Shown here one piece after another: positions 5,404 through 36,041 of a stretch of DNA of 36,041 nucleotides. The first letter of the stretch is position 1. Every line of letters starts with the position of its first letter. Origin of the DNA: Acidobacteriota bacterium (lineage in GTDB: Bacteria > Acidobacteriota > Terriglobia > Bryobacterales > Bryobacteraceae); contig JANXMS010000404.1 of assembly GCA_025354525.1 (NCBI GenBank), forward strand, positions 1 through 36,041, given 5' to 3'. The translations under genes were made by a program, and so were the position numbers. Under the pieces are notes generated by a model. It searched no databases and had not been told where the DNA came from. It saw only the letters and a program-made list of their open reading frames with translations.

Positions 5404-5468
5404 ATGCCGGTTTGTCGGAGTTTTACGGGATCGAGTTGCTTCCGAGGCGGCTAGTTCGCTTCAACGTC
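5404..5468 (+). repeat. Degenerate copy of the ScyD-like gene 3' part
   Basis: Six bases after the ScyD-like stop the sequence repeats part of that gene. TTGTCGGAGTTTTACG plus GATCGAGTT (5412-5437) matches 5191-5216 with one mismatch. After a deletion of about 28 bases, TCCGAGGCGGCT then TTCGCTT matches the gene's TCCGGGGCGGCT and TGCGCTT near 5247-5270. The right edge is uncertain because from 5451 the minus-strand Kelch remnant can be read. Confidence 0.75.
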
Positions 5469-6443
5469 GTCAAGGAGGATGGCCGCGATGGCGGTGCGGG
5501 CGGCGGTAAGCGGCCCCGCGTTTAACACCTGATTCTCGGCCGGATCAACGAGTTCTGTCGTGGCGAGAGGAACGCCGGTGGCTCAGCCGCCTGGGAGGAG
5601 GACCGTGCCGTTGCAATTGAAGAGTAGGTTGGCGTGGCCCTGCCGCGGTTGTTTCAAGGTGGCCGAGAGCGTTCTGAAGGTGGCCGACTCTGGATCGAAG
5701 ACCTCGAGCGTGTTGAGGTCAGCCGCGCCGGAGGAGCCACCGGCGAGCAGAACGCGGCCGTCGAGGAGCCGAGTGGCCGAGTGGGTGGCGCGGGGCCCAG
5801 TGAGCGCCGGGCCGGCCTGTACGGTGTCGGTGGCGGGATCAAAGATTTCGGTGGAACTGAGGCGAGAAGGGTGAGGGTGAAGTTTTCGCGGCGGAAGAGC
5901 AGGATCGCCGGCAGGGTGGCTATTCCAGTGGAGTTGGCGTCGAAAGTTTCGAGCACTGTGGAGCCGCCTCCGGCGATCAGAACCCGGCCATCGGGCAGGC
6001 GGAGCGCGACCGTGCCGCCGATGCGTTCGACGAGGCTATCGATGGGCGTCCAACAGTCCGACGAGGGTTTCGTACAAGGCGATGCCTATAGCACGTCTTG
6101 ACCTAACAGAGGGCAAATTCGCGACGTCTGAAGAGATCCGGAGCAATGTCGGGAGAGAGGAAGCGGGAGAGAGAATCGTCGAGATCGACGACAAGCGCAT
6201 GCATTGACGGGGCCTGTAGTTCGGGTTTACAGAACGCCTCCATTAAGGCGGGTATCGCTCTAGCGCCTTGCCCCCGGCGACGAGAAGAGTTCCACGTTGT
6301 CGAGCGGATCAGGACCGAGGCCGCCGATGACGAGAGGCTTCCGAGCGGGGTTGCGTGAGGAGAGCCGTGCCGCGGCAGGTCCAATCTTGCGCTTGCGCCA
6401 AAGCAGTGAATAAGAGGAGCGGAATGGTGGAGTTTCGCCGCAT
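5451..6443 (-). pseudogene. Kelch-repeat secreted protein, degraded
   Basis: On the minus strand a Kelch-type (galactose-oxidase-like) propeller protein can be read across several frames. It starts at ATG 6441-6443, 11 bases after the tetR stop, with a signal peptide (MRRNSTIPLLLFTALAQA). The frame then shifts to VIGGLGPDPLDNVELFSSPG. Further on come DGRVLIAGGGSTVLETFD, a frameshift near 5870, then STEIFDPATDTVQAGPAL, DGRVLLAGGSSGAADLNTLE, GTVLLPGG followed by an in-frame TGA, and ATTELVDPAENQVLNAG up to a TAG at 5451-5453. The D-G-R-V-L-x-A-G-G and E-x-F-D-P motifs are diagnostic Kelch signatures. At least two frameshifts and two internal stops make it a pseudogene. It was probably cotranscribed with tetR. 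Confidence 0.8.
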
Positions 6444-6454
6444 GAAACGCGGAA

Positions 6455-7075
6455 TTATTTGCGGCGTCGGGATGGAGTGGTGGACGGCGAGGCGATTCCC
6501 TTCCAGATCAGTCCGACGACTTCGCGAGCGAAATCGGGCGGGACGGTGGAGGTGGCCAAGTAGCGAGCGTAGAAGGCGCCGACGAGCATGTTCACGGCGC
6601 AATCGAGGTTGACCGCTGGACGGAGTTCTTTCCGTTTTTTGGCGCGGAGTAGGATGGCGTGGAGCATTCCCCGGCGGGTGGCGACGAGGCGCGCGCGGAA
6701 GAGGGCAAGCAGTTCCGGAGTATGAGCTTCTTCGGCCAGAACCGTGCCGATGAGCGACATTCCGTTCGGCCGGAGCAGCGAAGTGGAGAAGTTTTCCAGG
6801 GTGCGCGTGAGGTCGCCGACGGTCGAGCCGGTATCGACGGGAGGCTCAGCGAATTGAAGCGTGTTGAGGGCGGCGGTGGCGAGGTCGGCTTTGGAGGACC
6901 AGCGGCGGTAGATGGTGGGTTTGCTTGTCCCCGATTCGGCGGCGACGGCGTCGAGAGACATGCGAGAGTAGCCTTGTTCGGCGAGGAGGCGGAGGGCGGC
7001 TTGGAGAATACGAACTTCCGTTTCGGCGTCGCGAGGGCGACCGGGGGCGCGGGTGGGAGCGATTATTGAATCCAA
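6455..7075 (-). CDS. TetR/AcrR family transcriptional regulator
   Basis: A 206-residue TetR-type repressor. Residues about 20-66 hold the TetR_N helix-turn-helix: ILQAALRLLAEQGYSRMSLD, then AESGTSKPTIYRRWSSKADL, with YRRW as the recognition-helix end. The C-terminal ligand domain is helical; its ligand is unknown. The start is a TTG at 7073-7075, since no ATG lies between there and the HTH. It diverges from the NADPH:F420-reductase-like pseudogene; a 17-bp palindrome between them is the likely operator for both. The Kelch pseudogene follows directly downstream. The frame is intact although both neighbours are broken. Confidence 0.9.
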   Translation of the reverse strand: MDSIIAPTRAPGRPRDAETEVRILQAALRLLAEQGYSRMSLDAVAAESGTSKPTIYRRWSSKADLATAALNTLQFAEPPVDTGSTVGDLTRTLENFSTSLLRPNGMSLIGTVLAEEAHTPELLALFRARLVATRRGMLHAILLRAKKRKELRPAVNLDCAVNMLVGAFYARYLATSTVPPDFAREVVGLIWKGIASPSTTPSRRRK

Positions 7076-7084
7076 GGTTCAATC

Positions 7085-7112
7085 TTGACAATCTGAATGG
7101 ATACGATACAGT
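7085..7112 (+). promoter_or_regulatory. Putative sigma-70 promoter of the divergent target gene
   Basis: A perfect -35 TTGACA (7085-7090) is followed after 16 bp by TACAGT (7107-7112, 4 of 6 consensus bases). The -10 lies inside the palindromic operator, so bound repressor would block it. A Shine-Dalgarno-like GAGAAGGAG follows at 7122-7130, just before the remnant start codon of the reductase-like pseudogene. Confidence 0.6.
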
Positions 7113-7118
7113 ATCGTA
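7102..7118. promoter_or_regulatory. Palindromic TetR operator
   Basis: TACGATACAGTATCGTA is a perfect 8+1+8 palindrome in the divergent promoter region, the usual size and place of a TetR-family operator. It overlaps the plus-strand -10 and lies 26 bp upstream of the tetR start, so autoregulation is likely. An outer 10-bp inverted repeat, CCAAGGTTCA (7072-7081) and TGAACCTTGG (7136-7145), frames the region and overlaps both gene starts. Confidence 0.75.
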
Positions 7119-7134
7119 ATTGAGAAGGAGAAGT

Positions 7135-8059
7135 CTGAACCTTGGGATTATTGTTGGTGGCGCGTTGGGTGCGCGTTGAGTATCAGGTGGTTTTTGCTTA
7201 GCGCCATCCGGGGTCGGCGGAGATGAGAGCGCTGGTGGAGAAGGCGGGTCTGAACGCGCGGGCCGGAATTTCGGAAGAGGCGATGGCGGCAAGCAATGTG
7301 CTGCTGTTGGCGACGCCGTGGCCGGCGACGCAGGCGGTGGTCGGAGGGTTGGGAGCGCTGGACGGAAAAATCCTGGTTGATGCGACGAGTCCAATCCTGC
7401 CCCGGGTGGCGGGTTTGGAGTTCGTGAATACGACGTCCGGAGCCGAGCAGGTGGCCAGATGGGCTTTGGAGGCCCAGGTGGTGAAGGCGTTCCATACGAT
7501 TGGGTTCGACGTGATGGAGAACCCGGCTTTTGATGGCCATTTACCGGCCAACCGTTACCTGTTTCGCTCCTGCGGCCCACCGGGCAGACGCTCCCAGGAT
7601 TTCACACATCTCGGCCATTCTCCCGCATCCGATTCCACCGCGCAAAGTCGTGGTTCATTCCTTGGAATTTATGGCGGGGGAGGCCGGTGTCGGGTCACAA
7701 AACCCGCCAGCACCCCTGGTTTCTCCCGGGAATTTGTGCCATCTTTTGACTCGCCTGAACCAGATTGGCCAGCCGCGGATTGAACTCCATGACCGTCTAA
7801 GCCCAACAAAAACACCCGGCTGGAAAAAACAAAGCACGGACTTCGACATTGGCCGGTAAAGCGTTCAGGCGGCGACATTGTTTTATTTCGGAGACGACAA
7901 GGCAGCTAAGCAGGAGGTGAGGCAGTTAGCCACGGAATTGGGTTTTTCGGTCCGTTGATCCGGGCGCGGGTGCTGGAGCCATTCGCGATGATATGGATCA
8001 CTTTGGCGATGGTCGAGGTCTATGGGAGAGAGCTCGGATTGTCGTTACCGCTTCGGTAG
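7135..8059 (+). pseudogene. NADPH:F420 reductase-like oxidoreductase, disrupted
   Basis: Fragments in several frames reconstruct an NADP-binding protein of the NADPH-dependent F420 reductase type. The 5' part reads NLGIIVGGALGAR, a degraded Rossmann glycine motif whose start codon position now holds CTG (7135). A frameshift and a TAG at 7199 follow, giving EYQVVFA-stop-RHPGSAEM. An intact stretch 7202-7543 includes SNVLLLATPWPATQAVVGGL, KILVDATSP and EAQVVKAFHTIGF, all typical of the family. A 313-bp inverted-repeat element then interrupts it. After the element come FYFGDDKAAKQEVRQLATEL and, after another frameshift, RARVLEPFAMIWITLAMVE and the end at TAG 8057-8059. The divergent TetR was presumably its repressor. 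Confidence 0.82.
7544..7856. mobile_element. Small inverted-repeat element (MITE-like)
   Basis: Terminal inverted repeats CCGGCCAA (7544-7551) and TTGGCCGG (7849-7856) extend to 12 bp when flanking TTTA and TAAA are counted. If a TA target duplication is assumed, as in Tc1/mariner/IS630-type insertion, the element is 313 bp. Removing it with one TA joins the two halves of the oxidoreductase so that reading continues from GHL into KRSGGDIVL before the next frameshift. No transposase frame is recognisable inside, so it would be non-autonomous. The alternative, chance repeats at a deletion/insertion scar, is less likely because the ends coincide with the break in homology. Confidence 0.65.
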
Positions 8060-8066
8060 CGCGGAG

Positions 8067-8987
8067 TCAGGCCGGAGTGCAGCCGTCGAGGACGCCCGGT
8101 TCGACGCGGTTGCGGCCGTTGTGTTTGGCACGATAGAGCGCCTCGTCGGCAGCCCGGAGCAACGTTTCGGCCTCGACGTTGGGGCAGAAGGTGGCGTAAC
8201 CCAAACTTGCCGTGACGGTAAGCAAAGTGGTGCCAGAGGCGACTGGTTCGGCCCCGATGGCACTGCGAACGCGTTCCGCCAAAGCGGCCAAGTCCGCCGC
8301 AGCTCTGGGAGCCACGATCAGGAACTCTTCGCCCCCGTAGCGCCCGACGGCATCCTCTTCGTCGAGCACGTTTTGAATGCGCTCCGATGCTCCGATCAGG
8401 ACCGCGTCACCGGCGGCGTGACCATAAACATCGTTGACCAGCTTAAACTTATCGAGGTCGAGCATGATGACCCCGAGCGGAGAACGGAACTCCTCGGCGA
8501 TCTTCATCTGGTCGGCTAGGATTTCCCTGATGCGTGCGCGGTTTTTGAGGCCGGTCAGGGTGTCGTGAGTGGCCTGTTTGCGCAGCGCTTCGCGGGCCGA
8601 GAGCAACTCATCCTGAAGTTCGACGATCCGGCGTCCGGCGCGGAGGCGAACCCGCAGTTCTTGTTGATCGAACGGTTTGACGACGTAGTCATCGGCACCC
8701 GCCGTCATGCCTTCAATTACGTCTTCCTTCTGTGTCCGCCCGGTGAGCAGAAGAATATAGATGTAGGCATCGCCACCCTTTTGCCGAACCATTTCACAGA
8801 CTTGGGGGCCGGTGAGCCCAGGCATCATCCAATCTAAGACGGCCAACCGAGGAGCATCCGGCTGCCTCAGTACTTCCCAAGCTTGAGTACCATCAGAGGC
8901 GGAGACCACCTCATACCCCCATTTCTTCACCATGCTACTCAGCAGGTGGCGGGAAACGTTACTGTCGTCGGCAACAAGGATCTTCAT
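8067..8987 (-). CDS. Response regulator with GGDEF diguanylate cyclase output
   Basis: A 306-residue protein from ATG 8985-8987 (a TTG six bases upstream would add two residues). Counting from that TTG, the receiver domain spans about 3-122, with acidic pair D9/D10, phosphoacceptor D54, T84 and K106. A short helical linker (about 123-142) leads to the GGDEF domain from about 143: HDTLTGLKNR, DLDKFKLVND and the active-site GGEEF at 220-224, so it should make cyclic di-GMP from GTP when phosphorylated, like PleD/WspR. The inhibitory I-site position holds DEED rather than RxxD, suggesting no product feedback at that site. No cognate kinase is adjacent. Confidence 0.92.
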   Translation of the reverse strand: MKILVADDSNVSRHLLSSMVKKWGYEVVSASDGTQAWEVLRQPDAPRLAVLDWMMPGLTGPQVCEMVRQKGGDAYIYILLLTGRTQKEDVIEGMTAGADDYVVKPFDQQELRVRLRAGRRIVELQDELLSAREALRKQATHDTLTGLKNRARIREILADQMKIAEEFRSPLGVIMLDLDKFKLVNDVYGHAAGDAVLIGASERIQNVLDEEDAVGRYGGEEFLIVAPRAAADLAALAERVRSAIGAEPVASGTTLLTVTASLGYATFCPNVEAETLLRAADEALYRAKHNGRNRVEPGVLDGCTPA

Positions 8988-9420
8988 GCTCAAAGAGGTA
9001 AGAAAAAGGACTCGATCGGAGGTCTTATCGGCAGAATTGAAAAATATTTAGTTTCGAGTGCTCAGTACGCCGCAGACAGGCGGGGTCAATTCGGATTGCT
9101 GTTTCATGATAACCGACAAACTGGTGGTTGCTACTCAAAGTCTCTTTGTTTTCTTTCTAGCCGACGCACTTTTGCAGGACATCGAGCACACGGCATCTAG
9201 CCCCTCCGGAGTGCTATCGGCGAAATCGCGGGCTCGCATTAGCGCCGGGCCGCAAGAAATCACAATTTTCGATATTTCCCAAGTAGACTTCTCAGGTGGC
9301 GCGAGGGTTTTACAAAAAGCGCGTTTTTTCGATTCGACGAAGGCGGCATGGTATCTTGAAAAAGACGGCGGCGAGGTCTCGCATCGAACCGTCGGCAAGA
9401 GGAAGGATTCAAGAAAGCCC
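8988..9420. other. Upstream region of the GGDEF gene and clpP
   Basis: These 433 bases separate the divergent response-regulator gene and clpP. The clpP frame happens to stay open upstream as far as 9058, but the encoded sequence has no recognisable domain and true ClpP proteins begin near [13 protein letters not shown], so I read it as noncoding leader. It is richer in A and T than its surroundings, as expected for promoters; no clear -35/-10 pair was identified. A purine-rich AAGAGGAAGGA at 9398-9408 may serve as the clpP ribosome-binding site. Confidence 0.5.
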
Positions 9421-10029
9421 ATGGAAAACTCCGTTTTAATCCCGATGGTGGTGGAGCAGAACTCGCGCGGCGAACGTGCCTACGATATCTATTCGCGCCT
9501 GCTTAAAGAAAACATCATTTTTCTCGGGACGCCAATCGACGACAATGTCGCCAACCTAACCATCGCCCAGATTTTATTCCTGGCCGCGGAAGACCCGGAG
9601 CGGGACATTTCGATCTACATCAACTCCCCTGGTGGATCGATTACGGCTGGTTTAGCCATTCTCGATACGATGAACCTGGTTCAACCCGACATTGTTACTT
9701 ACTGCGTGGGACAAGCGGCATCCATGGCCGCCGTGCTGTTGGCTTGCGGCGCGAAGGGCAAGCGTTACTCCCTGCCGAATTCCCGAATTTTGATCCACCA
9801 GCCGTCGATGCACGGCTTGGCCGGACAAGCCACCGACATCGATATTTACGCTCGTGAAATTCTGAAAATGCGGGAGTCGCTGAATCAGATTTTGGCGACC
9901 GCCACCGGCCAGACCACTGAGAAGATCGCCCGTGATGTGGATCGCGACTACATCATGCGTCCCGAAGAAGCGATCAAGTACGGGATGATCGACCGCGTCA
10001 TCTCAAACAGCAAGGACATGGCGAAGTAA
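9421..10029 (+). CDS. clpP: ATP-dependent Clp protease proteolytic subunit
   Basis: A 202-residue serine protease that forms the double-heptamer chamber working with ClpX or ClpA-type unfoldases in the cytoplasm. The catalytic serine is S101 in [12 protein letters not shown] and the histidine is H126 in [12 protein letters not shown]; the catalytic aspartate lies in the RDVDRD stretch (171-176). [12 protein letters not shown] (69-80) is the oxyanion-forming strand typical of the family. Length matches bacterial ClpP. The start is ATG 9421, where homology begins and a purine-rich AGGAAGGA lies upstream. The usual neighbours tig and clpX are absent; instead an APC permease begins directly at the stop codon. 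Confidence 0.97.
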
Positions 10030-11232
10030 GTGCGCCCGGGCGGCGACCTGCGCAGGTCCCTCGGGCCGGCGCAGGTAGTTGCAGCCGGGGTTTCGTGTAT
10101 TGTGGGCGCGGGAATTTATCTCTCGCTCGGCGACTTGGTGGCCCCGTTGGGGCCATTTGTCGTTTTTGCCTTTGTCTTGGCGGGCTTGGCCTGTGGGCTG
10201 ACGGCGTTGAGCTACGCTCGGTTCGCGTCGCGTTTCCCAGAGGCCGGCAGCGCCTTTTCCTACGTCCGGCAAGGCTATGGGTTGAGGGCGGGATGGATGA
10301 CGGGATGGGCGCTGGTCCTGGAATACACCGTCGGCGCGGGGGCTGTTGTGGGCCTTTGGAGCTACTTGATTGAGAAAGAGTTAGGGTGGCCGCAGCCGAT
10401 CGTGATTCTGATTTCGATGACAGTGGTGACGGGACTGGTGATAGCGGGCGTCGAGCTTTGGAGCTGGATAACGTTGTCGTTGGTCGTATTGAAAGTTGGT
10501 ACTCTACTGCTTTTTTGCGCACTGGCGGCGGTTGGCCCGGCGGCGGACGGTCCTCTCAGCTACGGCTTCACGCCGGGCGAGTTCCTACGCGTCGCCGGGA
10601 TGGCGATATTTTCATTTCTCGGCTTTGAAAGCGTGTCTACTTTGGCTCAGGAAACGCGAAATCCGAAGCGGGATATGCCGGTCGGCATCCTGGGTTCGCT
10701 CCTGCTCGCCACGCTGCTCTACGTGGCCGTGGCGGGCCTGTACGTGCGGGTAACCCCGCAAGCCGATTGGGGGTCGGCCAACCCGCTGGCCGGGGCGCTA
10801 TGCCGCCTGGGATACGCCGGGCTTCGACCGGTCGTCACCGGCAGCGTCGTCGTCGGACTATCGACGGTCGCGATGGCGATGGTCGTCGGGCAGACCCGAA
10901 TCCTGTATGCTATGGCGCGGGCGGGTTTGGGTCCGGCTGCGTTTGGCGAGGTCCATCCGCGATTCGGCACGCCGTGGAAGGGCACCCTCGCCGTCGCGTT
11001 CGCGGTTACCGGCCTGGCATTGGCCGCGCCGGGAAACTTACTCTACCGTGTCGCTATTGTCGGGACTTTGAGTGTATTTACGGCCGTGGCGCTGGCGGGT
11101 GCAAGCCGTTGGCTGGCGTGGCCGGCGGCGGCGATCAACTTGGCACTGATGGCAGGCTTAGGATGGGAAGCCTGGACGGCGACGGCAATCTGGATGGGCA
11201 TAGGCTGGTTCACTTACAAGGAACAACGATGA
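10030..11232 (+). CDS. APC superfamily amino acid/polyamine permease
   Basis: A 400-residue integral membrane transporter. The N-terminus (LRRSLGPAQVVAAGVSCIVG then AGIYLSLG) carries the conserved APC first-helix motif with the helix-breaking GAGIY that forms the substrate site. About 11-12 hydrophobic segments follow; FSFLGFESVSTLAQETRNP is the typical TM6 motif. It is somewhat shorter than the common 430-500 residues. The substrate cannot be told from sequence. The GTG start follows the clpP TAA with no gap, and its own TGA overlaps the next ATG as ATGA (11229-11232). Coupling with a sugar-acid dehydratase-like enzyme suggests the two may serve one catabolic task. Confidence 0.88.
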   Translation: MRPGGDLRRSLGPAQVVAAGVSCIVGAGIYLSLGDLVAPLGPFVVFAFVLAGLACGLTALSYARFASRFPEAGSAFSYVRQGYGLRAGWMTGWALVLEYTVGAGAVVGLWSYLIEKELGWPQPIVILISMTVVTGLVIAGVELWSWITLSLVVLKVGTLLLFCALAAVGPAADGPLSYGFTPGEFLRVAGMAIFSFLGFESVSTLAQETRNPKRDMPVGILGSLLLATLLYVAVAGLYVRVTPQADWGSANPLAGALCRLGYAGLRPVVTGSVVVGLSTVAMAMVVGQTRILYAMARAGLGPAAFGEVHPRFGTPWKGTLAVAFAVTGLALAAPGNLLYRVAIVGTLSVFTAVALAGASRWLAWPAAAINLALMAGLGWEAWTATAIWMGIGWFTYKEQR

Positions 11233-12392
11233 AGATTACACGCATTTTGACTAAGGTCGTCCATGCGCGAATGCGGAACTGGATATTCGTGAAAGTAGAG
11301 ACCGATCAAGCGGGGCTTTACGGGTGGGGCGAAGCGACACTTGAATGGAAGACCAAGAGTGTCGTAGGTGCCGTCGAGGACCTGGCTGTGCTGTTGATCG
11401 GGCAGGATCCACGGCGCATTGAGCACCTTTGGCAGATCATGCACCGCCAGTATTTTTGGCGCGGCGGGATTATCAACTACACCGCTATCAGCGGCATCGA
11501 CCAAGCGTTGTGGGATATCAAGGGCAAGGAGCTAGGCCGGCCCGTACATGAGTTACTCGGCGGCCCGGTCCGCGATACATTGCGTTTCTATGACCATCTG
11601 GGCGGCGGCAAGATGGAAGATATCTACGGTGCCTCCGATCCGGGCTACTTCGCCGAACGAATCCTGATGTCGATGGAGGAGGGATTTACCGCCGTGAAAT
11701 CCATGCCGATCCCGATTTCCGATCCTATTGAACGGGCCGGAACGTTAAAGCGGGCCGCGAAGTGCGTCGAAGCAATGCGCCTAGCCGCGGGGGATGACGT
11801 CGACATCATGCTCGACCTCCATGCGCGCACGACCCCGGCGGCGGCCATTCAATTCGGGATGATGCTGGTGGACTACAACCTGTATTGGTATGAGGAGCCG
11901 TGTTGGCCGGAGTCAATCGACGGTCTGGCGGAGGTCGCCCGAGCGCTTCCCTTCCCCATCGCCACGGGCGAACGGCTGGTGGGTCGATGGGAATATCGGG
12001 AGTTGTTCGAAAAACGCGCCTGCGCGATTGTGCAGCCCGATTGCTCGCACTGCGGAGGCATTACCGAGGTCCGTAAGATCGCTGCCATGGCGGAAACGTA
12101 CTTGATGTCGGTGGCGTGTCATAACCCGCAGGGCCCGATTTCAACCGCGGCTTGCACCCACGTCGCCTTCGCGACGCCGAACTATCTGATTCAAGAGGTT
12201 GTCCGCAAAGACGTGCCTTGGCGTGCAGAAGTTGTCACCGGGCAGATCCCAATTGTAAACGGCCAAGCGGTGCCTCCGACTGCTCCCGGCTTGGGCATCG
12301 ATATCAACGAAGCGGCAGCCGACCGTCACCCGTGGGAGCCTGAGGTAACAATGAACTTCTTCCGCCGAGACGGCAGCGTCGCCGACTGGTAA
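11229..12392 (+). CDS. Enolase-superfamily dehydratase, D-galactonate dehydratase-like
   Basis: A 387-residue mandelate racemase/muconate lactonizing enzyme family protein. The Mg ligands are D196 (LDLHAR), E222 (YEEP) and E248 (TGERL); the acid/base residues are H198 and H298 (ACHNPQGP). All five sit exactly 13 residues after those I recall for E. coli DgoD (D183, H185, E209, E235, H285), supporting the galactonate dehydratase subgroup, which removes water from an aldonic acid to give a 2-keto-3-deoxy acid. The exact sugar acid is uncertain, as this subgroup contains several specificities. It is translationally coupled (ATGA) to the upstream permease, and a strong hairpin terminator follows. 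Confidence 0.85.
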   Translation: MKITRILTKVVHARMRNWIFVKVETDQAGLYGWGEATLEWKTKSVVGAVEDLAVLLIGQDPRRIEHLWQIMHRQYFWRGGIINYTAISGIDQALWDIKGKELGRPVHELLGGPVRDTLRFYDHLGGGKMEDIYGASDPGYFAERILMSMEEGFTAVKSMPIPISDPIERAGTLKRAAKCVEAMRLAAGDDVDIMLDLHARTTPAAAIQFGMMLVDYNLYWYEEPCWPESIDGLAEVARALPFPIATGERLVGRWEYRELFEKRACAIVQPDCSHCGGITEVRKIAAMAETYLMSVACHNPQGPISTAACTHVAFATPNYLIQEVVRKDVPWRAEVVTGQIPIVNGQAVPPTAPGLGIDINEAAADRHPWEPEVTMNFFRRDGSVADW

Positions 12393-12399
12393 TCGGAAT

Positions 12400-12431: not shown

Positions 12432-12442
12432 TCATCGCAAGA

Positions 12443-12886
12443 CTACCAGCGACCGCCGCCGCCGCCGCCCTTACCACCGCGACCGCCACCACCACCGCCG
12501 CGACCACCACCACCACCGCCGCCAAAGCCGCCGCCCTTACCGCGACCACCGCCGCCACCACCACCACCACCGAACCCGCCACCACCGCCACCACCGGACG
12601 GACGAAAGCCGCCGCCACCGCCGCCGCCAGGGCCGCGCTCTTCCCGAGGACGGGCTTCTTCCACTTTCATCGGACGGCCGCCGAGATCGTAACCATTGAG
12701 GGCCATGACCGCAGCATCACCTTCCGCATCATTAGGCATTTCCACAAAGCCAATGCCGCGCATCTGCCCGGTATCACGATCCCGCAACAAATGAACGCGA
12801 TCCACCGCGCCGTACTGGCCAAACATCTGCAGCAATTCATCATCGCGAACGTCGTAGGGCAGGTTGCCTACAAAAATATTCTTCAT
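12443..12886 (-). CDS. RRM RNA-binding protein with glycine-rich tail
   Basis: A 147-residue protein. Residues 1-80 form one RNA-recognition motif: RNP2 IFVGNL (4-9) and RNP1 RGIGFVEM (43-50) carry the aromatic residues that stack on RNA. From about residue 86 the tail is almost all glycine with scattered R, K, F and S, ending GGGGGGRW. This is the architecture of bacterial glycine-rich RNA-binding proteins (cyanobacterial Rbp type), often cold- or stress-linked, thought to act as RNA chaperones. A good AAGGAG ribosome-binding site precedes the start. It lies downstream of and in the same direction as the TonB receptor, with 121 bp between. Confidence 0.93.
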   Translation of the reverse strand: MKNIFVGNLPYDVRDDELLQMFGQYGAVDRVHLLRDRDTGQMRGIGFVEMPNDAEGDAAVMALNGYDLGGRPMKVEEARPREERGPGGGGGGGFRPSGGGGGGGFGGGGGGGGGRGKGGGFGGGGGGGRGGGGGGRGGKGGGGGGRW

Positions 12887-26551: not shown

Positions 26552-26586
26552 ACGACTCAGTATCACCTATCGATGTTGCAGCATCG

Positions 26587-27972: not shown

Positions 27973-27990
27973 CTCATCAGAATAAGATAG

Positions 27991-29088
27991 ATGGTAATGA
28001 GCACCGCGACCCAACCCGATCTTTTTGCAAGAGTGAATGCGAACAAGGAACGCCTAGACGCCCATGTCCGCGAAATCGTCCAATGGCATTTCAACCCTGA
28101 AACAGGTTGCCCGTTCTGGCTGAACTGGGCCCAGGAAGCCGGTTGGGACCCCCGCAAGGAAGTCAGTTCCTACGAAGATCTTGCGAAATTCGGAAACTTC
28201 TCCGACGATGAGCTCCGCGGCGGACCCGTCCGTCGCTGGATTCCGAAGGGCCTAGCCCATCGCCCCGCCTATGTCTTCGAAACCGGCGGATCCACCGGCC
28301 TTCCCAAGTCCCGCGTCCAGATGGACGACTTCCGGATCGACTACGAAAATTTCTCGGAAACTCTCCCCGACGAGTCGTTCCCCAAAGGCTCCGACTGGCT
28401 CATGCTCGGACCCAGCGGCCCCCGCCGCCTCCGCCTCGCCGTCGAACATCTCGCCCAACATCGCGGCGGCATCGCCTTCTCCGTCGACCTCGATCCCCGC
28501 TGGGTCATCAAACTCATCAAACGCGGCCAACTGCAGGAAGCTGAACTCTACAAGCAGCACTGCGTCGATCAAGCCCTCACCATCCTTCGCTCGCACGAAG
28601 TGAAGTGCATGTTCACCACGCCCAAACTCCTCGAAGCTCTCTGCGAAAAGATCAATCTCGAGAAGGTCGGCGTTAAAGGCGTCTTCTGTGGAGGCACCGA
28701 AATGACCCCGCAATTCCACCGCTTCGCCGTCGAAGAGTTACTCGGACCGAACGTATATTTCGCCCCCACCTACGGCAACACTCTGATGGGTCTCGCCACC
28801 CACCGTGCCCCCGAGCCTAAGGACAATTGGGCCATCATTTACTACCCGCCCTGCCCCCGTGCCCTGCTCGAAGTCGTCGATTTCGACGACGCCACCAAGG
28901 TCGTCGGCTACGGCGAAACCGGCCGCGTCCGCCTCACCACGCTCACGAAGGAAACCTTCATCCCCCGCTTCCTCGAACGCGACGAATGCGAACGCGAAGC
29001 GCCTTGCGATCAGTACCCCTGGGACGGTGTCCGCAACGTTCGCCCCTTCTCGCGCTTCCAAAAGTCGGTCGTTGAAGGGGTCTACTAA
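27991..29088 (+). CDS. EhpF/LuxE-like acyl-adenylating enzyme
   Basis: A 365-residue ANL-superfamily protein lacking the usual C-terminal subdomain, the size of LuxE (acyl-protein synthetase) and EhpF (griseoluteate-activating enzyme). FETGGSTGLPKSRV (96-109) is the phosphate-binding loop; GGTEMT (234-239), APTYGNTLMG (258-267) and GYGETGRVRL (306-315) correspond to the acyl- and AMP-binding motifs. By family it adenylates a carboxylic acid, handing the acyl group to a partner. The next gene, an aldehyde dehydrogenase-type reductase three bases downstream, is the expected partner. The acid substrate cannot be inferred. A second ATG at 27997 would shorten it by two residues. Confidence 0.75.
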   Translation: MVMSTATQPDLFARVNANKERLDAHVREIVQWHFNPETGCPFWLNWAQEAGWDPRKEVSSYEDLAKFGNFSDDELRGGPVRRWIPKGLAHRPAYVFETGGSTGLPKSRVQMDDFRIDYENFSETLPDESFPKGSDWLMLGPSGPRRLRLAVEHLAQHRGGIAFSVDLDPRWVIKLIKRGQLQEAELYKQHCVDQALTILRSHEVKCMFTTPKLLEALCEKINLEKVGVKGVFCGGTEMTPQFHRFAVEELLGPNVYFAPTYGNTLMGLATHRAPEPKDNWAIIYYPPCPRALLEVVDFDDATKVVGYGETGRVRLTTLTKETFIPRFLERDECEREAPCDQYPWDGVRNVRPFSRFQKSVVEGVY

Positions 29089-29091
29089 CCC

Positions 29092-30507
29092 ATGCTCCAC
29101 CTCCCCATCCTGCGGTACGGCAAGCCCTACCGCAGCGTCGACGTCTCCACCGCAATCCACTATCGCACCCGCCAGCCCTACGTCGAAATCAGCCAGGCGA
29201 ACGTCGGGCTCATCCGACGAGACCTGCTGCAACAGCACGAAGCCGCCGCGATTCTCCAAGGCTTCACAACGCGCGAATTAATCGTCATGGCCGGCAAAGC
29301 CAGCGGCTATTTCCTTAACGATGACCTCCCGCAATCCCCGCAGGAATTCGTCGAATCCGTCTCCGCCACCACCGGACTACCCTGGGTCATGGTCCGCCGC
29401 AACATGGACAAAATCGCCGGTGTCCTCGCCTCCATGGAAACGGTGCTCATGGGCCTCACCCGCCTCCCCGCTCTCGACATGCTCGATACCGGCCGAGGCG
29501 AAATGGACGGCCGCGCTCTCAGCTTTTTCCCCCGCGGCAATTCAATGGGCGTCATCCTCCCGTCGAACTCCCCCGGCGTGCATTCGCTTTGGGCCCCGGC
29601 CATCGCCCTGAAAACGCCGCTCATCCTTAAGCCCGGCAGCTCCGAACCCTGGACGCCTTACCGCATCATCCAGGCATACATCAAAGCCGGCGTGCCTGCC
29701 GAAGTCTTCGGCTACTACCCCACCAGCCACGCCGGCGGCGCGGAAGTTCTCCGCGGCACCGGTCGCGGCATGCTCTTCGGCGATGTCGCCGCCGCGAAAG
29801 CTTGGAGCGGCGATCCCCGCATCGAAATCCACGGCCCTGGCTATTCCAAAATCATCCTGGCTGACGACGGCGCTGCGAACTGGGACAAGTATCTGGACCT
29901 TATGGTTGACTCCGTGGCCAACAACTCCGGTCGCTCTTGCGTCAACTGCTCCAGCATCTGGACCACCGGCAACGGGCGCGAATTGGCCCAAGCCCTAGCC
30001 GAACGTTTAGCCAAAATCAAGCCCACCTCCGAAGAGGATCCTCACGCCGCCGTCGCCCCGCTCGCCAACCCCGACGTCGCCAAACGCATCAGCGCCATGG
30101 TCGATAGCGAGCTCGACGCCGATGCCGAAGACCTCTGCGCCAAGGTGCGTGGCAGCGAACGCGTGGCCGTCTATGAGGGCTGCACCTACCTGCTCCCCTC
30201 GGTCATTCATGTTTCCTCCAAAGAGCATGCCATGGCCAACCGCGAGTTCGGCTACCCTCACGTCAGCGTCGTCCAAGTGGAGCCGCACGAACTTCCGCAC
30301 TGCCTCGGGCCCACGCTCGTCTGCACGGCACTTACCAACGACACCAAACTCCACCAGCGTCTGCTTGCCAACCCCCACATCGGCCGACTGAATCTGGGGG
30401 CCATCTCCACTATGAAGATCTCCTGGGATCAACCCCACGAAGGCAATCTGTTCGACCACCTGTACTCGCGCCGAGCCTTCCAAGCGGTGCCCGAACTGGT
30501 GGGCTAG
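29092..30507 (+). CDS. Aldehyde dehydrogenase-superfamily acyl reductase (EhpG/LuxC-like)
   Basis: A 471-residue ALDH-fold enzyme. VILPSNSPGVHSLW (154-167) and LILKPGSSEPWTP (177-189, K180) form the nucleotide-binding region; NNSGRSCVNCSSIW (277-290) holds the catalytic cysteine, most likely C283. ALDH-type reductases paired with an acyl-adenylating gene (LuxC with LuxE, EhpG with EhpF) work in the reductive direction, turning an activated acid into an aldehyde with NAD(P)H. Direction and cofactor here are inferred from that context. It lies three bases after the adenylating gene, and the next start codon follows directly on its stop. Confidence 0.8.
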   Translation: MLHLPILRYGKPYRSVDVSTAIHYRTRQPYVEISQANVGLIRRDLLQQHEAAAILQGFTTRELIVMAGKASGYFLNDDLPQSPQEFVESVSATTGLPWVMVRRNMDKIAGVLASMETVLMGLTRLPALDMLDTGRGEMDGRALSFFPRGNSMGVILPSNSPGVHSLWAPAIALKTPLILKPGSSEPWTPYRIIQAYIKAGVPAEVFGYYPTSHAGGAEVLRGTGRGMLFGDVAAAKAWSGDPRIEIHGPGYSKIILADDGAANWDKYLDLMVDSVANNSGRSCVNCSSIWTTGNGRELAQALAERLAKIKPTSEEDPHAAVAPLANPDVAKRISAMVDSELDADAEDLCAKVRGSERVAVYEGCTYLLPSVIHVSSKEHAMANREFGYPHVSVVQVEPHELPHCLGPTLVCTALTNDTKLHQRLLANPHIGRLNLGAISTMKISWDQPHEGNLFDHLYSRRAFQAVPELVG

Positions 30508-31743
30508 TTGAAAATCGTTTACATCACAGCAGGGGCCGCCAATATGTACTGCGGCTCCTGCATGAGGGACAACGCCCTGGCAGGTTCGCTGAAGGCCAGC
30601 GGCCACGATGTAGTCCTCGTCCCCGTCTACACCCCCACCCTCACCGACGAAGCCAACCACAGCCTCAACCGAGTTTTCTTCGGCGGCGTCAGCGTCTATC
30701 TCCAGCAAAAATCCGCTCTCTTCCGCCACACCCCCAAGTTCCTCGACAAACTCTGGGACTCCAACGCCGCTCTCCGCTTGGCATCCCAACGCTCCGTCGG
30801 AGTAAATCCGAAATTCCTCGGCGAAATGACCGTCTCCATGCTCGAAGGCGAGCACGGCCCCATCAAAAAAGAGTTTGAAAAACTCTGCGATTGGCTCGCT
30901 ACAGAGCCGACACCCGACGTCATCAGCCTCCCTTTCGCTCTCCTCATCTCCTTCGCCGAACCCATGAAGCGGGTCACCGGAGCCCCCGTTGTCCTTACCC
31001 TCCAAGGCGAAGACCTGTTCCTCGACGGCCTCGCCGAACCGTGGCGTTCGCGCAGCATGGATCTCATCCGCACCAACATCAAACACGTCGACGCCTTCCT
31101 GGCGACCTCCGAATACTACGCCCAGTACATGACCGATTATTTCGGCCTTCCCGCCGACAAGGTCCACGTCGTCCCCCTCGGCATCAACTTCGAAGGCCTC
31201 GCCCCGGCCCCCAAATCCCACACCGGTTTCCGCGTCGGTTTCTTCGCCCGCATCGCCCCCGAAAAAGGCCTCCACAACCTCGTCGAAGCCGTTCAAATGC
31301 TCGACGGCGTCGAACTCCACGTCGCCGGCTACAACCTCCCCGAACACCGCGATTATCTCGCCAAATACGCCCCGTTCATCCACTATCACGGCTCGCCAGA
31401 CCGCGAAGGCAAAGCCCGTTTCCTCCAAAGTGTTGACGTCCTCTCCGTCCCCACGGACTACGTCGAACCCAAAGGCTTCTCCATCCTCGAAGCCTGGGCC
31501 TGCGGCCTTCCCGTCATCCAACCCGCTCACGGAGCCTTCCCCGAAATGATCGCCAAAACCGGCGGCGGCCTGCTCGTTCAGCCCGGCAACGCCGCCGAAC
31601 TAGCCGCCGCCATTGCCACACTTCGCGACGATTCCGCCCTCCGCCATCGCCTCGCCGCCCGCGGCCTGGCCGGCGTCCATCAGCATTACTCCATGGACGC
31701 CATGACGCAGGCCGCGCTCTCCGTTTACCATAGAGTCGCGTGA
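30508..31743 (+). CDS. GT4 glycosyltransferase with N-terminal CGSC motif
   Basis: A 411-residue retaining GT-B glycosyltransferase. The donor-binding half shows FFARIAPEKGLHNLVEAV (245-262; R248, K253) and VEPKGFSILEAWACGLPV (319-336; E320, E328), the classical GT4 E-x7-E motif. The N-terminus has an unusual MYCGSCMRDNALAG (13-26) in the acceptor domain, with a CxxC pair also seen, from memory, in a widespread but uncharacterised GT4 subgroup. It starts with TTG directly at the previous stop, and its TGA overlaps the ABC gene's GTG. In context it may glycosylate the product of the two preceding enzymes. Confidence 0.88.
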   Translation: MKIVYITAGAANMYCGSCMRDNALAGSLKASGHDVVLVPVYTPTLTDEANHSLNRVFFGGVSVYLQQKSALFRHTPKFLDKLWDSNAALRLASQRSVGVNPKFLGEMTVSMLEGEHGPIKKEFEKLCDWLATEPTPDVISLPFALLISFAEPMKRVTGAPVVLTLQGEDLFLDGLAEPWRSRSMDLIRTNIKHVDAFLATSEYYAQYMTDYFGLPADKVHVVPLGINFEGLAPAPKSHTGFRVGFFARIAPEKGLHNLVEAVQMLDGVELHVAGYNLPEHRDYLAKYAPFIHYHGSPDREGKARFLQSVDVLSVPTDYVEPKGFSILEAWACGLPVIQPAHGAFPEMIAKTGGGLLVQPGNAAELAAAIATLRDDSALRHRLAARGLAGVHQHYSMDAMTQAALSVYHRVA

Positions 31744-32408
31744 TCAATCTCACTCAAATCGCCAAGGCCTACTCCACCGCCGCCGGTCAGTTGCCCGTCC
31801 TTGAAGCCGTCGACCTGATGATCGTCCCCGATGATCGCGTCTCCATCGTCGGCCCCTCCGGCAGCGGCAAGAGCACGTTGCTCCACATCCTCGGCCTTCT
31901 CGACACCCCCACCTCCGGCACCATGGAGTTCGATGGCCAGTGGCCCCTCGAACTCAGCGAAGCCGCCCAAGCCCGCTTTCGCAACGAGAAAATCGGATTC
32001 ATTTTTCAAGACCACTGCCTGCTCCCCCAGTGCACCGTTCTCGAAAACGTCCTCGCCCCCACGCTCGTCGGCAAGCCCGATCCCTCCGCCAAAGATCGTG
32101 CGCGAGAACTCCTCCGCCGCGTCGGCCTCACCTCGCGCCTCCAACACCGCCCGGCCGAACTTTCCGGCGGAGAAAAGCAGCGCGTCGCCATCGCCCGAGC
32201 CTTGATCCGAAAGCCCCAACTCCTCCTTTGCGATGAACCCACCGGCAACCTCGACGAACAAACCGCCGCCGAAGTCGTTGACCTCCTCATCGAACTCCAG
32301 GACGAAGCCGGCAACATCATCGTCATCGTGACCCACAGCAAAATCCTCGCCCAGCGTATGGACCGTCAGTTCGCGATGGTCAACCGCCGCCTCGAAGAAG
32401 CCCTCTAA
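31740..32408 (+). CDS. ABC transporter ATP-binding protein (LolD/MacB type)
   Basis: A 222-residue ATPase with all motifs: Walker A GPSGSGKST (38-46), Q-loop Q90, signature LSGGE (141-145), Walker B LLLCDE (161-166), D-loop, and H-loop H199. Size and sequence match the LolD/MacB/FtsE branch that powers FtsX-fold permeases, here the 1008-residue protein downstream. It starts with GTG overlapping the glycosyltransferase stop (GTGA). Its own TAA overlaps the next ATG as TAATG; that ATG begins a decayed copy of this gene's 3' part, not the permease. Confidence 0.93.
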   Translation: MINLTQIAKAYSTAAGQLPVLEAVDLMIVPDDRVSIVGPSGSGKSTLLHILGLLDTPTSGTMEFDGQWPLELSEAAQARFRNEKIGFIFQDHCLLPQCTVLENVLAPTLVGKPDPSAKDRARELLRRVGLTSRLQHRPAELSGGEKQRVAIARALIRKPQLLLCDEPTGNLDEQTAAEVVDLLIELQDEAGNIIVIVTHSKILAQRMDRQFAMVNRRLEEAL

Positions 32409-32423
32409 TGCTCCGAAATCTCC
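32367..32423 (+). repeat. 57-bp direct repeat, left copy
   Basis: Identical to 32609-32665. It spans the last 13 codons of the ATPase, its stop and the first five codons (MLRNL) of the following frame. The 242-bp offset equals the size of the inserted partial duplicate, showing that the duplication included the gene junction. Confidence 0.9.
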
Positions 32424-32650
32424 GCAAGCCCACCCCCGCCGCCAAAGTTAGCGCCCAGGGTCTCCTCCGACGCGCCGGCCTATCCAGCGGAAAAGAGCAG
32501 CCCGTCGCCATCGCCCGAGTCTTGACCCGAAAGCCCCAACTCCTCCTCTGCGAGGAACCCACCGACATCGTCACCCACCGCAAGACCCTCCACCAGAAGA
32601 TCGCCCCCCAGTTCGCGATGGTCAACCGCCGCCTCGAAGAAGCCCTCTAA
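32408..32650 (+). pseudogene. 80-codon decayed partial duplicate of the ABC ATPase
   Basis: An intact 80-codon frame that is visibly a shrunken copy of the ATPase 3' half. QGLLRRAGL matches ELLRRVGL; LSSGKEQPVAIARVLTRKPQ matches the signature region; LLLCEEPT matches Walker B but with the Mg-coordinating D replaced by E; DIVTHRKTL matches the H-loop; QFAMVNRRLEEAL is identical to the ATPase end. Walker A is absent and about 60 codons are deleted, so it cannot hydrolyse ATP. It begins with MLRNL, also the start of the permease. TAATG overlaps at both ends keep the three frames coupled. It could be translated as a small protein, but no function is suggested by the sequence. Confidence 0.85.
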
Positions 32651-32665
32651 TGCTCCGAAATCTCC
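32609..32665 (+). repeat. 57-bp direct repeat, right copy
   Basis: Second identical copy. It ends the 80-codon remnant and begins the permease gene. Perfect identity here contrasts with heavy change in the rest of the duplicate, so either conversion or selection on the junction and the permease start has kept this part. Confidence 0.9.
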
Positions 32666-35600
32666 AATGGTTCTGGCGAACGAATTTAGCCGTAGTCTTC
32701 GGCGTGGCGGTCGCCGTTTCGGTGATGATCGGCTCACAAATCGTCGGCGACTCCGTGCAAGCTTCCCTCCGCGAACTCGCCCTCGCCCGCCTCGGCCGCG
32801 TCGATTCCGCTGTCGTCGCCGCTCTGCCCTTCACGGAAGCCCTCCCCGACCGCTTGGCCAAAAAGACCCGCGCCATGGCCCCCGTGCTCCACTTCGCTGG
32901 CATCGTCAAACACCAGGGCTCCAACAAGTCAGCCGCCAAAGTGCTCATCTACGGCGTCGACCAACGCTACTGGCGCCTCCAAGGAATCACCGCCGAGCCG
33001 CTCGCGGAACGCGACGCCATCATCAGCGAAGCCCTCGCCAAAGAGTTCGGCGCGAACGCTAACGACGGCATCCTCGTCCGCATCGAAAAGCCCAGCGAAA
33101 TCCCCCAGGAATCGCTCCACGGCCGCCGCGAAGGCTCCGTCCGCACCGTCCGTTTCCGCGTCAAAAAAACGCTCCCCGGCGGCTTCGCCCTCGAACCCCA
33201 ACAAGGCGAACTCCGCGTCGTCTACGTCGCCCTCTCGACTCTTCAAAAGGAGCTCGACCAAGCCGAAAAAGCCAACGTTCTCCTCGTCTCTGGCCCTGCC
33301 ATTACAAACGAAGAACTCCGCGACGGCCTCCGCATGGAAGACCTCGGCATGAAGCTACGCCCCGTCCCCGGGGGCATGCAACTCGAAAGCGGTGCCGGCC
33401 TTCTCCGCGACGACCAAGTCGCCCGCGTCTCCGAAACCGCCGCCAAACTCGGCCTCCGCTCGGAACCCCTGCTCACTTACCTCGCGAACAACATGAAGAT
33501 CGGCAACCGCGAGGTCCCCTACTCCCTCGTCACCGCCACCCCCGAAGTCACCGAAGGCATCCGCCTCAACACGTGGACCATGCAGCAAACCGGCGCCAAG
33601 CCCGGCGACAAACTGCAAATGGAATACTACCTTTGGCGTCAGGAAGGCAACCTCGATACCGCCTCTGCGCTGTTCACCGTCGCCGGCGCCACCGCTCTCG
33701 GAGACCGCATCATGGCCCCCGACTACCCCGGCATCAGCGACGCCGACAACGTCAGCGACTGGGACCCGCCCTTCCCCATGAACCTCGACAAAATTCGCCC
33801 CGTCGACGAGAAGTATTGGGCCGACTATCGCACCACCCCCAAGGCCTTTGTCTCCATTGCCGACGGCCAGCGCCTCTGGGGCTCCCGCTTCGGCAAAGTC
33901 TCCTCCGTCCGCCTCTATCCCGGTAACAAAGAACAAGCCTGGATCGCCGCCTTCCTCCCCAGCGTCGACCTCTCCAAGGACGGCCTAACGATCCTCCCCC
34001 TCCGCGACCAAGCCCTCGCCGCCTCCGCTGGCAGCACCGATTTCGCCATGTATTTCGGCATGTTCAGCAGCTTCGTCATGGGCTCGGCGTTCCTACTAAC
34101 GGCCCTCTTCTTCCGCCTCGGCATTGAACAGCGGCTCCGCGAAATCGGCCTCTTTCTCGCCATCGGCTACTCCCGCCGCGATGTCCGCCGCATGTTCGTC
34201 CGCGAAGGCTTGGCCCTCGGCCTCGTCGGCACCGTCGTCGGTTGCGTCGGTGCCTGGCTCTATTCCAGCGGCCTCCTCTACGGCCTCCGCCACTGGTGGA
34301 ACGACGCCGTCGGAACCCATTCCCTGCAGCTTCACTTATCTCCGACCGCCCTCCGCGGAGCCCTCTTCCCAGGCATCATCGTCAGCGTCCTCGTCGTCGT
34401 CATCACCCTCCGCCGCCTCCGCGGCCTCTCCCCGTGGGACCTCCTCGCCGGTCGCCAAATTGACGATCTGCCCCACACCGCTGTCCGCCTTCGCTGGCTC
34501 GCCATCGGCTTCCTCGCCGCCGGCCTAGCCCTCGCCGGAGCCTCCGCCGCCGGTCGCATCGCCCCCGAAGGCGGCTTCTTCGGCGCCGGCTTCCTCCTTC
34601 TCATTGGAGGCGCCTTGGGCAGCCGCGCACTCCTCGAAGCCGGCCTCGGCGGCGAGTTCAATTCCCTCGCCCGCCTCGCCTGGGCCAACGCCGGCCAACG
34701 GCCCACTCGGTCCATGATGACCATCGCCCTCATCGCCTTCGCCACCTTCCTGCTCATCTCCCTCGAAGCCTTCCGCCACCCGCCCGCCTCGTCCCTCGCC
34801 TTCAACAAATACGCTTATCTGGGCGAAAGCCAATCGCCACTCTACGAAAAACTCGACGGTGCCGTCATGCTCCGCGTCCGACCAGGCGAAGACGCAAGCT
34901 GCCTCAATCTCTACGCCCCCACCCGCCCCAAGGTTGTCGCCCTCCCCCCCGGCCTCGTCCCCGCTCTCGACGCCCCCCTTGCTGACGGCGCAATCCCCGC
35001 CGCCGCCGACGCCAACTCCCTCCAGTACATTCTCCACAAGGCCATCGGCGACGAAATGACCCTCGACGGCGGAGCCCGGATTCGCTTCGTGGCCACTCTC
35101 CCCGGCAGCGTCTTCCAAAGCGAAGTGCTTATCGGCGAAGCCCAGTTCCTCCGCGCCTTCCCCGCCGAACAAGGCTTCCGGATGATGCTCTTCGAAAAAG
35201 CACCCAACGAAAACGTCGAAGAACTTTTCTCCGACTCCGGCCTCGACGTCATGACCGTCTCCGAAAAACTAGCCCAGTTCCTCCGCGTCGAACATGCCTA
35301 CCTTTCAACTTTTCAAGCCCTCGGTGCTCTTGGGCTAATTCTCGGTACCTTCGGCCTCAGCGCCGTCCTGCTGCGCAACGTCCTCGAACGCCGGAAGGAA
35401 CTCGCCCTGCTCCGCGCCGTCGGCTTCACCGGCTCCGAAGTCGCTCAAGTCATCGTCCTCGAAAACCTGCTCCTGCTGGCATTCGGCCTGGCCGTCGGCA
35501 CCCTCTGCGCCCTCGTCGCCGTAGCCCCCTCCCTGCTCGAACGCGGCCAACTCCCCCCGCTTTTTCCCATGTTCGGACTCCTCGCCTCCGTCGCCCTCAC

Positions 35601-35676
35601 CGGCCTCCTCGCCTCCGTCCTCGCCACCCGCGCCGCCCTCCGAGCACCCCTGCTCGCCTCGCTGCGATCAGAGTAA
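32650..35676 (+). CDS. Large FtsX-type ABC transporter permease
   Basis: A 1008-residue membrane protein of the MacB/LolCE-like FtsX superfamily with two FtsX cores. An N-terminal helix (about 11-32) is followed by a large extracytoplasmic domain; then a membrane cluster at about 470-600 (FVMGSAFLLTALFF; the coupling motif LREIGLFLAIGYSRRDVRRM), more helices to about 690, a second periplasmic domain, and a final FtsX core from about 890 (LERRKELALLRAVGFTGSEV). The EIGLFLAIG and ELALLRAVG coupling helices contact the ATPase. It probably exports or extracts a lipid- or peptide-linked substrate. ATG overlaps the preceding TAA (TAATG). Degenerate copies of its 3' end follow. Confidence 0.92.
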   Translation: MLRNLQWFWRTNLAVVFGVAVAVSVMIGSQIVGDSVQASLRELALARLGRVDSAVVAALPFTEALPDRLAKKTRAMAPVLHFAGIVKHQGSNKSAAKVLIYGVDQRYWRLQGITAEPLAERDAIISEALAKEFGANANDGILVRIEKPSEIPQESLHGRREGSVRTVRFRVKKTLPGGFALEPQQGELRVVYVALSTLQKELDQAEKANVLLVSGPAITNEELRDGLRMEDLGMKLRPVPGGMQLESGAGLLRDDQVARVSETAAKLGLRSEPLLTYLANNMKIGNREVPYSLVTATPEVTEGIRLNTWTMQQTGAKPGDKLQMEYYLWRQEGNLDTASALFTVAGATALGDRIMAPDYPGISDADNVSDWDPPFPMNLDKIRPVDEKYWADYRTTPKAFVSIADGQRLWGSRFGKVSSVRLYPGNKEQAWIAAFLPSVDLSKDGLTILPLRDQALAASAGSTDFAMYFGMFSSFVMGSAFLLTALFFRLGIEQRLREIGLFLAIGYSRRDVRRMFVREGLALGLVGTVVGCVGAWLYSSGLLYGLRHWWNDAVGTHSLQLHLSPTALRGALFPGIIVSVLVVVITLRRLRGLSPWDLLAGRQIDDLPHTAVRLRWLAIGFLAAGLALAGASAAGRIAPEGGFFGAGFLLLIGGALGSRALLEAGLGGEFNSLARLAWANAGQRPTRSMMTIALIAFATFLLISLEAFRHPPASSLAFNKYAYLGESQSPLYEKLDGAVMLRVRPGEDASCLNLYAPTRPKVVALPPGLVPALDAPLADGAIPAAADANSLQYILHKAIGDEMTLDGGARIRFVATLPGSVFQSEVLIGEAQFLRAFPAEQGFRMMLFEKAPNENVEELFSDSGLDVMTVSEKLAQFLRVEHAYLSTFQALGALGLILGTFGLSAVLLRNVLERRKELALLRAVGFTGSEVAQVIVLENLLLLAFGLAVGTLCALVAVAPSLLERGQLPPLFPMFGLLASVALTGLLASVLATRAALRAPLLASLRSE

Positions 35677-35806
35677 TGCGCCCTCGTCGCCGTAGCTCCC
35701 TCGCTGCTCCATCGCGGCCACCTCTCGGCCTCGTCGAAACCGTCGCCCTCGCGCCACCCGCGCCCCTCTCCGAGCACCCCTGCTCGCCTCCCTGCGATCA
35801 GAGTAA
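35677..35806 (+). repeat. Degenerate copy 1 of the permease 3' end
   Basis: Begins directly after the permease stop. TGCGCCCTCGTCGCCGTAGC matches the gene from 35506; the end (CGAGCACCCCTGCTCGCCTC, then CTGCGATCAGAGTAA) matches the last codons and stop. About 40 bases of the original are deleted in the middle. As at the ATPase, the preceding stop forms TAATG, which here opens a 49-codon frame with no recognisable product. Confidence 0.88.
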
Positions 35807-35934
35807 TGCCCCCTCGTCGCCGTAGCTCCCTCGCTATTTGATCGCGGCCACTGCTCGGCCTCGTCGAAACCGTCGTCCTCGCCACCCGCGCCGCCTTCCG
35901 AGCACCCCTCCTCGCCTCCCTAGGATCAGAGTAA
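35807..35934 (+). repeat. Degenerate copy 2 of the permease 3' end
   Basis: A second unit of 128 bp, again from TGCCCCCTCGTCGCCGTAGC to GGATCAGAGTAA. It resembles copy 1 more than the gene, sharing the same central deletion and the GGCCTCGTCGAAACCGTCG segment, so it arose from copy 1 or with it. Confidence 0.88.
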
Positions 35935-36041
35935 TACGAAACCCTCTGCCCCCTCGTCGCCGTCGCTCCTTCGCTGCTCCATCGCGGCCACTCCTCGGCC
36001 TCGTCGCAACCGTCGCCCTCGCCACCCCTGCCGCCCTCCGA
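35935..36041 (+). repeat. Degenerate copy 3 of the permease 3' end (partial)
   Basis: After about six unrelated bases, ACCCTCTGCCCCCTCGTCGC resumes the unit slightly further upstream in the gene (from about 35499), and it continues to the window edge with the shared CTCGGCCTCGTCGCAACCGT segment. The array therefore extends beyond the window. Confidence 0.85.

Follow-up and report, generated by a model that had tools for sequence, protein, structure and literature searches.

Short-junction tandem duplications, or illegitimate recombination, place copies head to tail in direct orientation with no long homology on either side, and are known mainly as rare or selected events. In diversity-generating retroelements (DGRs), the template lies near the 3′ end of its gene. 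Bacterial minisatellites (VNTR) form head-to-tail arrays of locus-specific units, many of them intergenic; in one tabulation of variable E. coli loci, the minisatellite label is carried by 18 of 1,037 and by 17 of 539, a measure that differs from the one used here (PMC2884548). Mycobacterial interspersed repetitive units (MIRU) are ORF-bearing inserts with a stop/start overlap with the next gene; an excerpt describing them calls them apparently mobile and repetitive genome-wide, gives a spacing of −4 nt, and holds that coupling to the next gene likely limits the impact of the insert (PMC12548453). The acidobacterium Candidatus Solibacter usitatus Ellin6076 carries 8.7-fold more repeats than Ellin345, mostly under 50–100 nt, and the section on repeats in that account describes no gene-tail tandem copies (PMC3174227).

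The window studied here, 36,041 bp in length, is the whole of contig C632 (JANXMS010000404.1) in a draft assembly of an Acidobacteriota bacterium (GCA_025354525.1, hereafter G000). An initial annotation of the window had claimed that three of its genes are each followed by a shortened copy of their own 3′ part, here called an echo. It had proposed a recurring process in this genome, either local tandem duplication followed by deletion or repair-associated copying, and had found no named process to match.

Three echoes in one window

All three echoes are real copies present in the sequence. The first parent gene is an ORF at 4267–5397 on the plus strand that encodes a ScyD/ScyE family protein (NCBIfam NF033206, E 2.6e-35). 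Its echo had been placed at 5404–5468; the clear part, on the plus strand, is 5409–5437, which matches gene segment 5188–5216 at 27 of 29 nt and is short yet beyond chance, with a local score of 48 against a maximum of 34 among 3000 random 100-bp pieces. A weaker tail of matches seems, from the sequence, to run on to about 5463. The source lies ~180–210 nt upstream of the stop, and the echo is thus a copy from the 3′ part of the gene in which the stop is not included. The ortholog in the relative G006 (90% amino acid identity) has no echo, though the sequence that follows that gene is not the counterpart of the one in G000.

The second parent gene, an ABC transporter ATPase (31740–32408, plus strand; Pfam ABC_tran), supplied a source unit of 353 bp at 32071–32423 that runs from the 3′ part of the gene through its stop to nt 16 of the permease gene that follows. 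The echo, previously set at 32408–32650, shifts slightly to 32424–32665 on the plus strand. It is a decayed single tandem copy of 242 bp, shortened by in-frame losses of 33 and 78 nt; it stays in the parent frame throughout and open for 80 codons, and aligns with its source in two 106-nt blocks of 84–86% identity. The outcome is a duplication-made 80-aa ORF at 32408–32650 (plus strand), which overlaps the stop of the ATPase gene at one end and the start of the permease gene at the other, with TAATG in both places, and has a weak ABC_tran match to the same region as the parent. Mismatches by codon position are 6/12/9; with no third-position bias among them, nothing points to selection on the peptide. 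The final 57 nt of the copy equal the source exactly, while the other aligned bases differ at 37 of 185 positions. Within this stretch, the first 37 nt are also identical in G006 and 18 nt in G012. At the 3′ end of the ATPase gene itself (32367–32403), 37 nt are identical between G000 and G006 despite a ~30% third-position difference in the gene, perhaps through nucleotide-level constraint from permease start signals. We infer that the signals for starting permease translation lie in the 57-nt stretch, in which case either copy could count as the original there; recent gene conversion is an alternative account. In G006, G012, G017 and G010, the permease gene follows the ATPase gene directly, with no insert.

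The third parent gene, an FtsX/MacB-type permease (32650–35676, plus strand; Pfam FtsX, MacB_PCD), is followed at once by an array of shortened copies of its 3′ end (35677–36041, plus strand), for which three or more units had been proposed. The window holds three, of which the last is truncated where the contig ends. The source unit, 35506–35676, measures 171 bp, the array period is ~130–140, and the 130-nt units show 72–92% identity. As the initial annotation had it, both ABC units contain the stop codon, and internal segments have been lost from the copies of both. The units (353 and 171 bp) begin within the parent gene and end at or just past the stop. Two losses are common to all permease copies that reach that far, which indicates that an already shortened copy was amplified. 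The contig stops inside the array, which resumes on contig C131 with about three more units and then the native downstream gene, on our reading cytochrome-c-like from its CxxCH motif. On C131 the array end is GATCAGAGTAA-GCTGGTTCTATG, and the same junction stands directly after the permease, as GATCGGAGTAA, in G006 and G012, whose permeases are 92% and 90% identical to that of G000. The permease runs straight into the cytochrome-c-like gene with no insert in G006, G012 and G017. A whole-genome search with the array matched C632 and C131 only, and thus revealed no dispersed family.

Three further echo loci, outside the window, agree with this picture. L078 and L081 have no insert in G006, G012, G017 and G001, and L072 has none in G006 and G012. 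Orthologous loci, which the initial annotation had proposed to compare, therefore lack the copies at all six places tested. At the locus matching L072, G006 does carry a separate array, ~800 bp ahead of the gene on its upstream side, and TRF lists the same array. Contig C300 of G006 (L132, L195) carries a diverged tandem array at about 4248–4683 (73–75%, period about 152); G006 is the closest relative, and the process is thus not wholly private to G000. Judged from these sequence comparisons, the ancestral state is the one with no insert, and the echoes are tandem duplications made in place.

Copies of gene ends across the genome

The G000 sample comprised 1,046,807 bp in 92 contigs or joined stretches, 14% of the 7.32-Mb, 633-contig draft assembly. 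For genes with full flanks, the last 300 bp of each CDS were compared with the next 500 bp at a score of at least 50; the test covered the flanks of genes. The 3′ end was copied downstream at 19 of 519 genes, against none of 2030 shuffled pairs at the same score. It was copied upstream at 2/519, and the 5′ end upstream at 5/519, a count less certain than the 3′ counts since gene starts are approximate. With the same-genus relatives G006, G017 and G009 pooled, the respective figures are 1/327, 3/327 and 0/327, so only the downstream 3′ class (and the 5′ class) is raised in G000. The predicted excess of downstream 3′-end copies is thus borne out in this sample, and together with the absence of copies from relatives at the tested places it upholds a recurring process of local tandem duplication and deletion in this genome. 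Some of the 19 genes share one duplication; when these were merged, by reading of the table, 14 distinct loci (3′) stood against 5 (5′; p = 0.064). An E-value version of the test gave 18 versus 5 of 523 genes (3′ versus 5′).

Not every array lies at a gene end. From 56 array loci we removed 11 that share sequence elsewhere in the sample (six families, grouped by eye), leaving 45 locus-unique arrays, with uniqueness judged within the 14% sample. Since one of them (L005:10409–10800) is the other half of the permease array of the window, these represent 44 distinct loci, from which we extrapolate an estimate of ~300 for the whole genome. Among the 45, L014 and L065:186–777 resemble long-established pairs of paralogs, and C425:14188–15947 is a whole-gene tandem array. 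Copies touch a 3′ end only in 18, a 5′ end only in 5 (p = 0.011), both in 7 and neither in 15. The gene-3′-end pattern seen in the window holds in part: 3′ exceeds 5′ at genes with known flanks, but the arrays are wider than gene tails, as 15 of the 45 show.

Arrays are also denser in G000 than in its relatives. TRF arrays with a period of at least 40 and not inside one gene number 30 in 1,046,807 bp of G000 versus 2 in 637,703 bp of the relatives (p = 7e-5), the latter made up of 1 in 247 kb (G006), 0 in 220 kb (G017) and 1 in 171 kb (G009). Without 7 dispersed-family arrays, and with the split permease array counted once, the figures are 22 versus 2 (p = 0.002, ratio 6.7). BLAST-based clusters in the first 820 kb, at 5.6 per 100 kb versus 0.8, 0.9 and 1.8 in the relatives, show a smaller contrast than TRF. 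Local repeats in the 820 kb, intragenic ones counted, are 105 direct and 1 inverted, and the offset between copies is 94–548 bp (5th to 95th percentile).

With dispersed families included, arrays occupy 9 of 84 convergent, 12 of 400 codirectional and 1 of 100 divergent intergenic regions; by a hand count of locus-unique arrays, the numbers become 9/84, 10/400 and 0/100 (convergent versus divergent, p = 0.0007). At contig ends, where the outer neighbour is unknown, the 3′ preference is not seen: arrays lie beyond 15 of 92 3′ ends and 15 of 60 5′ ends with dispersed families included, and beyond 11/92 and 12/60 without them (p = 0.25). One array counted beyond a 5′ end is in fact the permease array. 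Local repeats lie near 22 of 151 contig ends versus 4.7% of random windows.

Dispersed repeats occur, in the sample, at 49 of 178 contig ends versus 1.3% of interior windows, which explains part of the fragmentation of the G000 assembly. The F1 family, ~220 bp long and containing an internal repeat of 67 bp, is found at 6087–6263 of the window and at L078:1–508, as well as at contig ends of L070, L098, L163, L008 and L108; its matches in 15 other sample stretches are mostly 87–96% identical (one 70%) and often at contig ends. Family F2 occupies 1–195 and 393–483 of the window, which starts within an F2 copy, and L165:462–1059, L112:7592–8078 and L015:14323–14838. Both L165 and the window have group II intron D1–D4 domains a short way downstream of F2. 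On the minus strand at 12443–12886 the window also has an ORF with a long low-complexity ACC/GCC run, glycine-rich by reading. Intragenic tandem repeats at L057:9149–9768 (period 261 nt, reaching the contig end) and at 4095–4319 of C400 (L016; period 108 nt, a low-complexity run) both have periods that are multiples of three.

Decay and origin of the copies

In 25 alignments of parent CDSs with their 3′ copies, some sharing a locus, mismatches by codon position were 76/942, 70/942 and 131/952 (8.1, 7.4 and 13.8%); between the permease orthologs of G000 and G006 they were 0.065/0.026/0.397. We fitted a model of one constrained and one neutral copy, with time and echo rate as unknowns, to three numbers. 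It predicts a position-1 mismatch of 0.0810 (observed, 0.0807) and an echo rate of 0.070 against a parent position-3 share of 0.068, although the bootstrap of the echo/parent rate ratio is wide (0.55–2.27) and calibration comes from one gene pair. The fitted t of 0.17 (bootstrap 0.09–0.26), for which third positions are partly saturated and the calibrating gene pair is the same, would place mean copy age at roughly one third of the branch that follows the divergence from G006. Of 30 indels in 3′ copies, 23 break the frame. The codon-position fit thus indicates free decay of the copies, at a rate close to the near-synonymous one of their parents, and error-prone copying is therefore not needed; the repair-associated copying of the initial annotation is not supported.

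We consider it likely that the echoes arose in this lineage through local tandem duplications that recur, with neutral decay following and selection filtering the survivors; direct orientation, local origin and decay all fit tandem duplication. A segment is duplicated head to tail in place and, where the unit spans the stop of a gene, leaves the gene intact with a truncated 3′ copy behind it. Substitutions and deletions then erode the copy neutrally, and re-amplification of a copy that has already been shortened can yield an array. The duplication itself may be RecA-independent, by replication slippage or by illegitimate joining with little homology. Classical slippage usually leaves junction microhomology. 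In present-day sequence, in which the copies have since diverged, both window junctions have 0 nt of it, which fits end joining or eroded slippage. Junctions elsewhere are mostly blurred by extra bases or later deletions; that of L020 has 3 extra bases and no homology. A defect in flap processing or in mismatch repair was rejected as a cause: no such lesion was found, PolA 5′–3′ exonuclease and MutS domains lying in open frames, an observation of domain presence, which does not prove function. Survivors would pile up on the 3′ sides of genes because a duplication in that position leaves promoters and reading frames unharmed, and we favour this filter as the source of the 3′ bias. At the ABC locus, the copy carries the stop/start overlap along, and the permease probably keeps its translational coupling through the 80-codon relic ORF.

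The strongest competitor places the bias in mutation itself. Duplication would prefer transcript ends or convergent gene junctions, such as places at which positive supercoiling, stalled forks or gyrase breaks accumulate; such sites would be hot spots of blunt tandem duplication, and the genome would grow by decaying gene tails. The gradient from convergent through codirectional to divergent regions and the 19 versus 5 genes speak for this, as does the point that 5′ ends should also remain intact after tandem duplication, so that only mild selection against 5′ copies would be expected. Indeed, since tandem duplication leaves each gene its own flank, selection alone may not suffice to explain the absence of locus-unique arrays from 100 divergent pairs. 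However, selection predicts the same gradient, many arrays touch no gene end or only a 5′ end, and there is no excess beyond 3′ contig ends. On balance we regard a 3′-directed mechanism as rather unlikely, and prefer tandem duplication filtered by selection.

The other accounts are far less probable. That the echoes are assembly artefacts or concatenated strain alleles might be suspected in so fragmented a draft, with its surplus of local repeats near contig ends, yet native flanks bound the permease array on both contigs. Strain alleles are rejected by the codon-position mismatches: the model expects 37/15/225 where 76/70/131 were observed (chi2 288), and most indels are frameshifts. We hold an artefact to be very improbable. 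We give marginally less credence still to two further readings. In one, reverse transcriptase copied mRNA 3′ ends, or the echo served a DGR as template repeat; the position of DGR templates and the group II intron domains in this genome would suit it. Changes at A, however, do not exceed those at T (2.24 versus 2.26 relative to base content, 67 alignments), reverse transcriptase genes are not enriched (2 matches, one below cut-off, versus 0–8 in relatives), divergence agrees with the neutral clock with no excess, and units extend across an operon junction as well as over opposing genes; we therefore rejected it. In the other, copies are kept for function, as relay ORFs for translational coupling or as terminator modules. 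The ATPase echo is what recommends this, with its open frame, in-frame losses, TAATG at both ends and unchanged last 57 nt amid otherwise diverged sequence, but its mismatches lack a third-position bias, indels elsewhere mostly break the frame, and the tested copies are missing from relatives.

Comparison with known systems

Contrary to the initial view that no named process matches, tandem duplication and decay account for the anatomy of the echoes. Among the titles and abstract openings listed by full-text literature searches, none was seen to describe genome-wide gene-tail tandem copies in a bacterium, which is not proof of absence, as subscription papers lay outside the search. Here one lineage has gathered local tandem duplications ~nine times more densely, by TRF, than three same-genus relatives (~seven times without dispersed families). 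Each array has a built-in clock, an intact source beside a free copy, from which the rate, decay and deletion of bacterial non-coding DNA become measurable, and the contrast between convergent and divergent regions makes mutation bias versus selection testable. The same duplications account for some of the fragmentation of this draft genome and for the origin of small relic ORFs such as 32408–32650.

Like minisatellites, the echoes are head-to-tail arrays of locus-specific units, but their units are long, strongly diverged, in many cases derived from gene tails, and dense in one genome. The ATPase echo resembles a MIRU in bearing an ORF with a stop/start overlap; in contrast to MIRU, its unit copies the adjacent gene and the overlap is 1 nt, and the permease array, with matches confined to its own two contigs, does not belong to a dispersed family of related units. 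Short-junction duplications share the direct head-to-tail arrangement without long flanking homology, whereas here an estimated hundreds, by extrapolation, lie in one genome. G000 and Ellin6076 are both repeat-rich acidobacteria, and the echoes of G000 are gene-tail tandem copies. The nearest known things are thus minisatellites and MIRU-like relay ORFs; neither, as described in the excerpts cited, gives locus-unique gene-tail arrays this dense, and what we see, with few such copies in the sampled relatives, appears to be tandem duplication of the ordinary sort that is unusually intense here, not a new kind of element.
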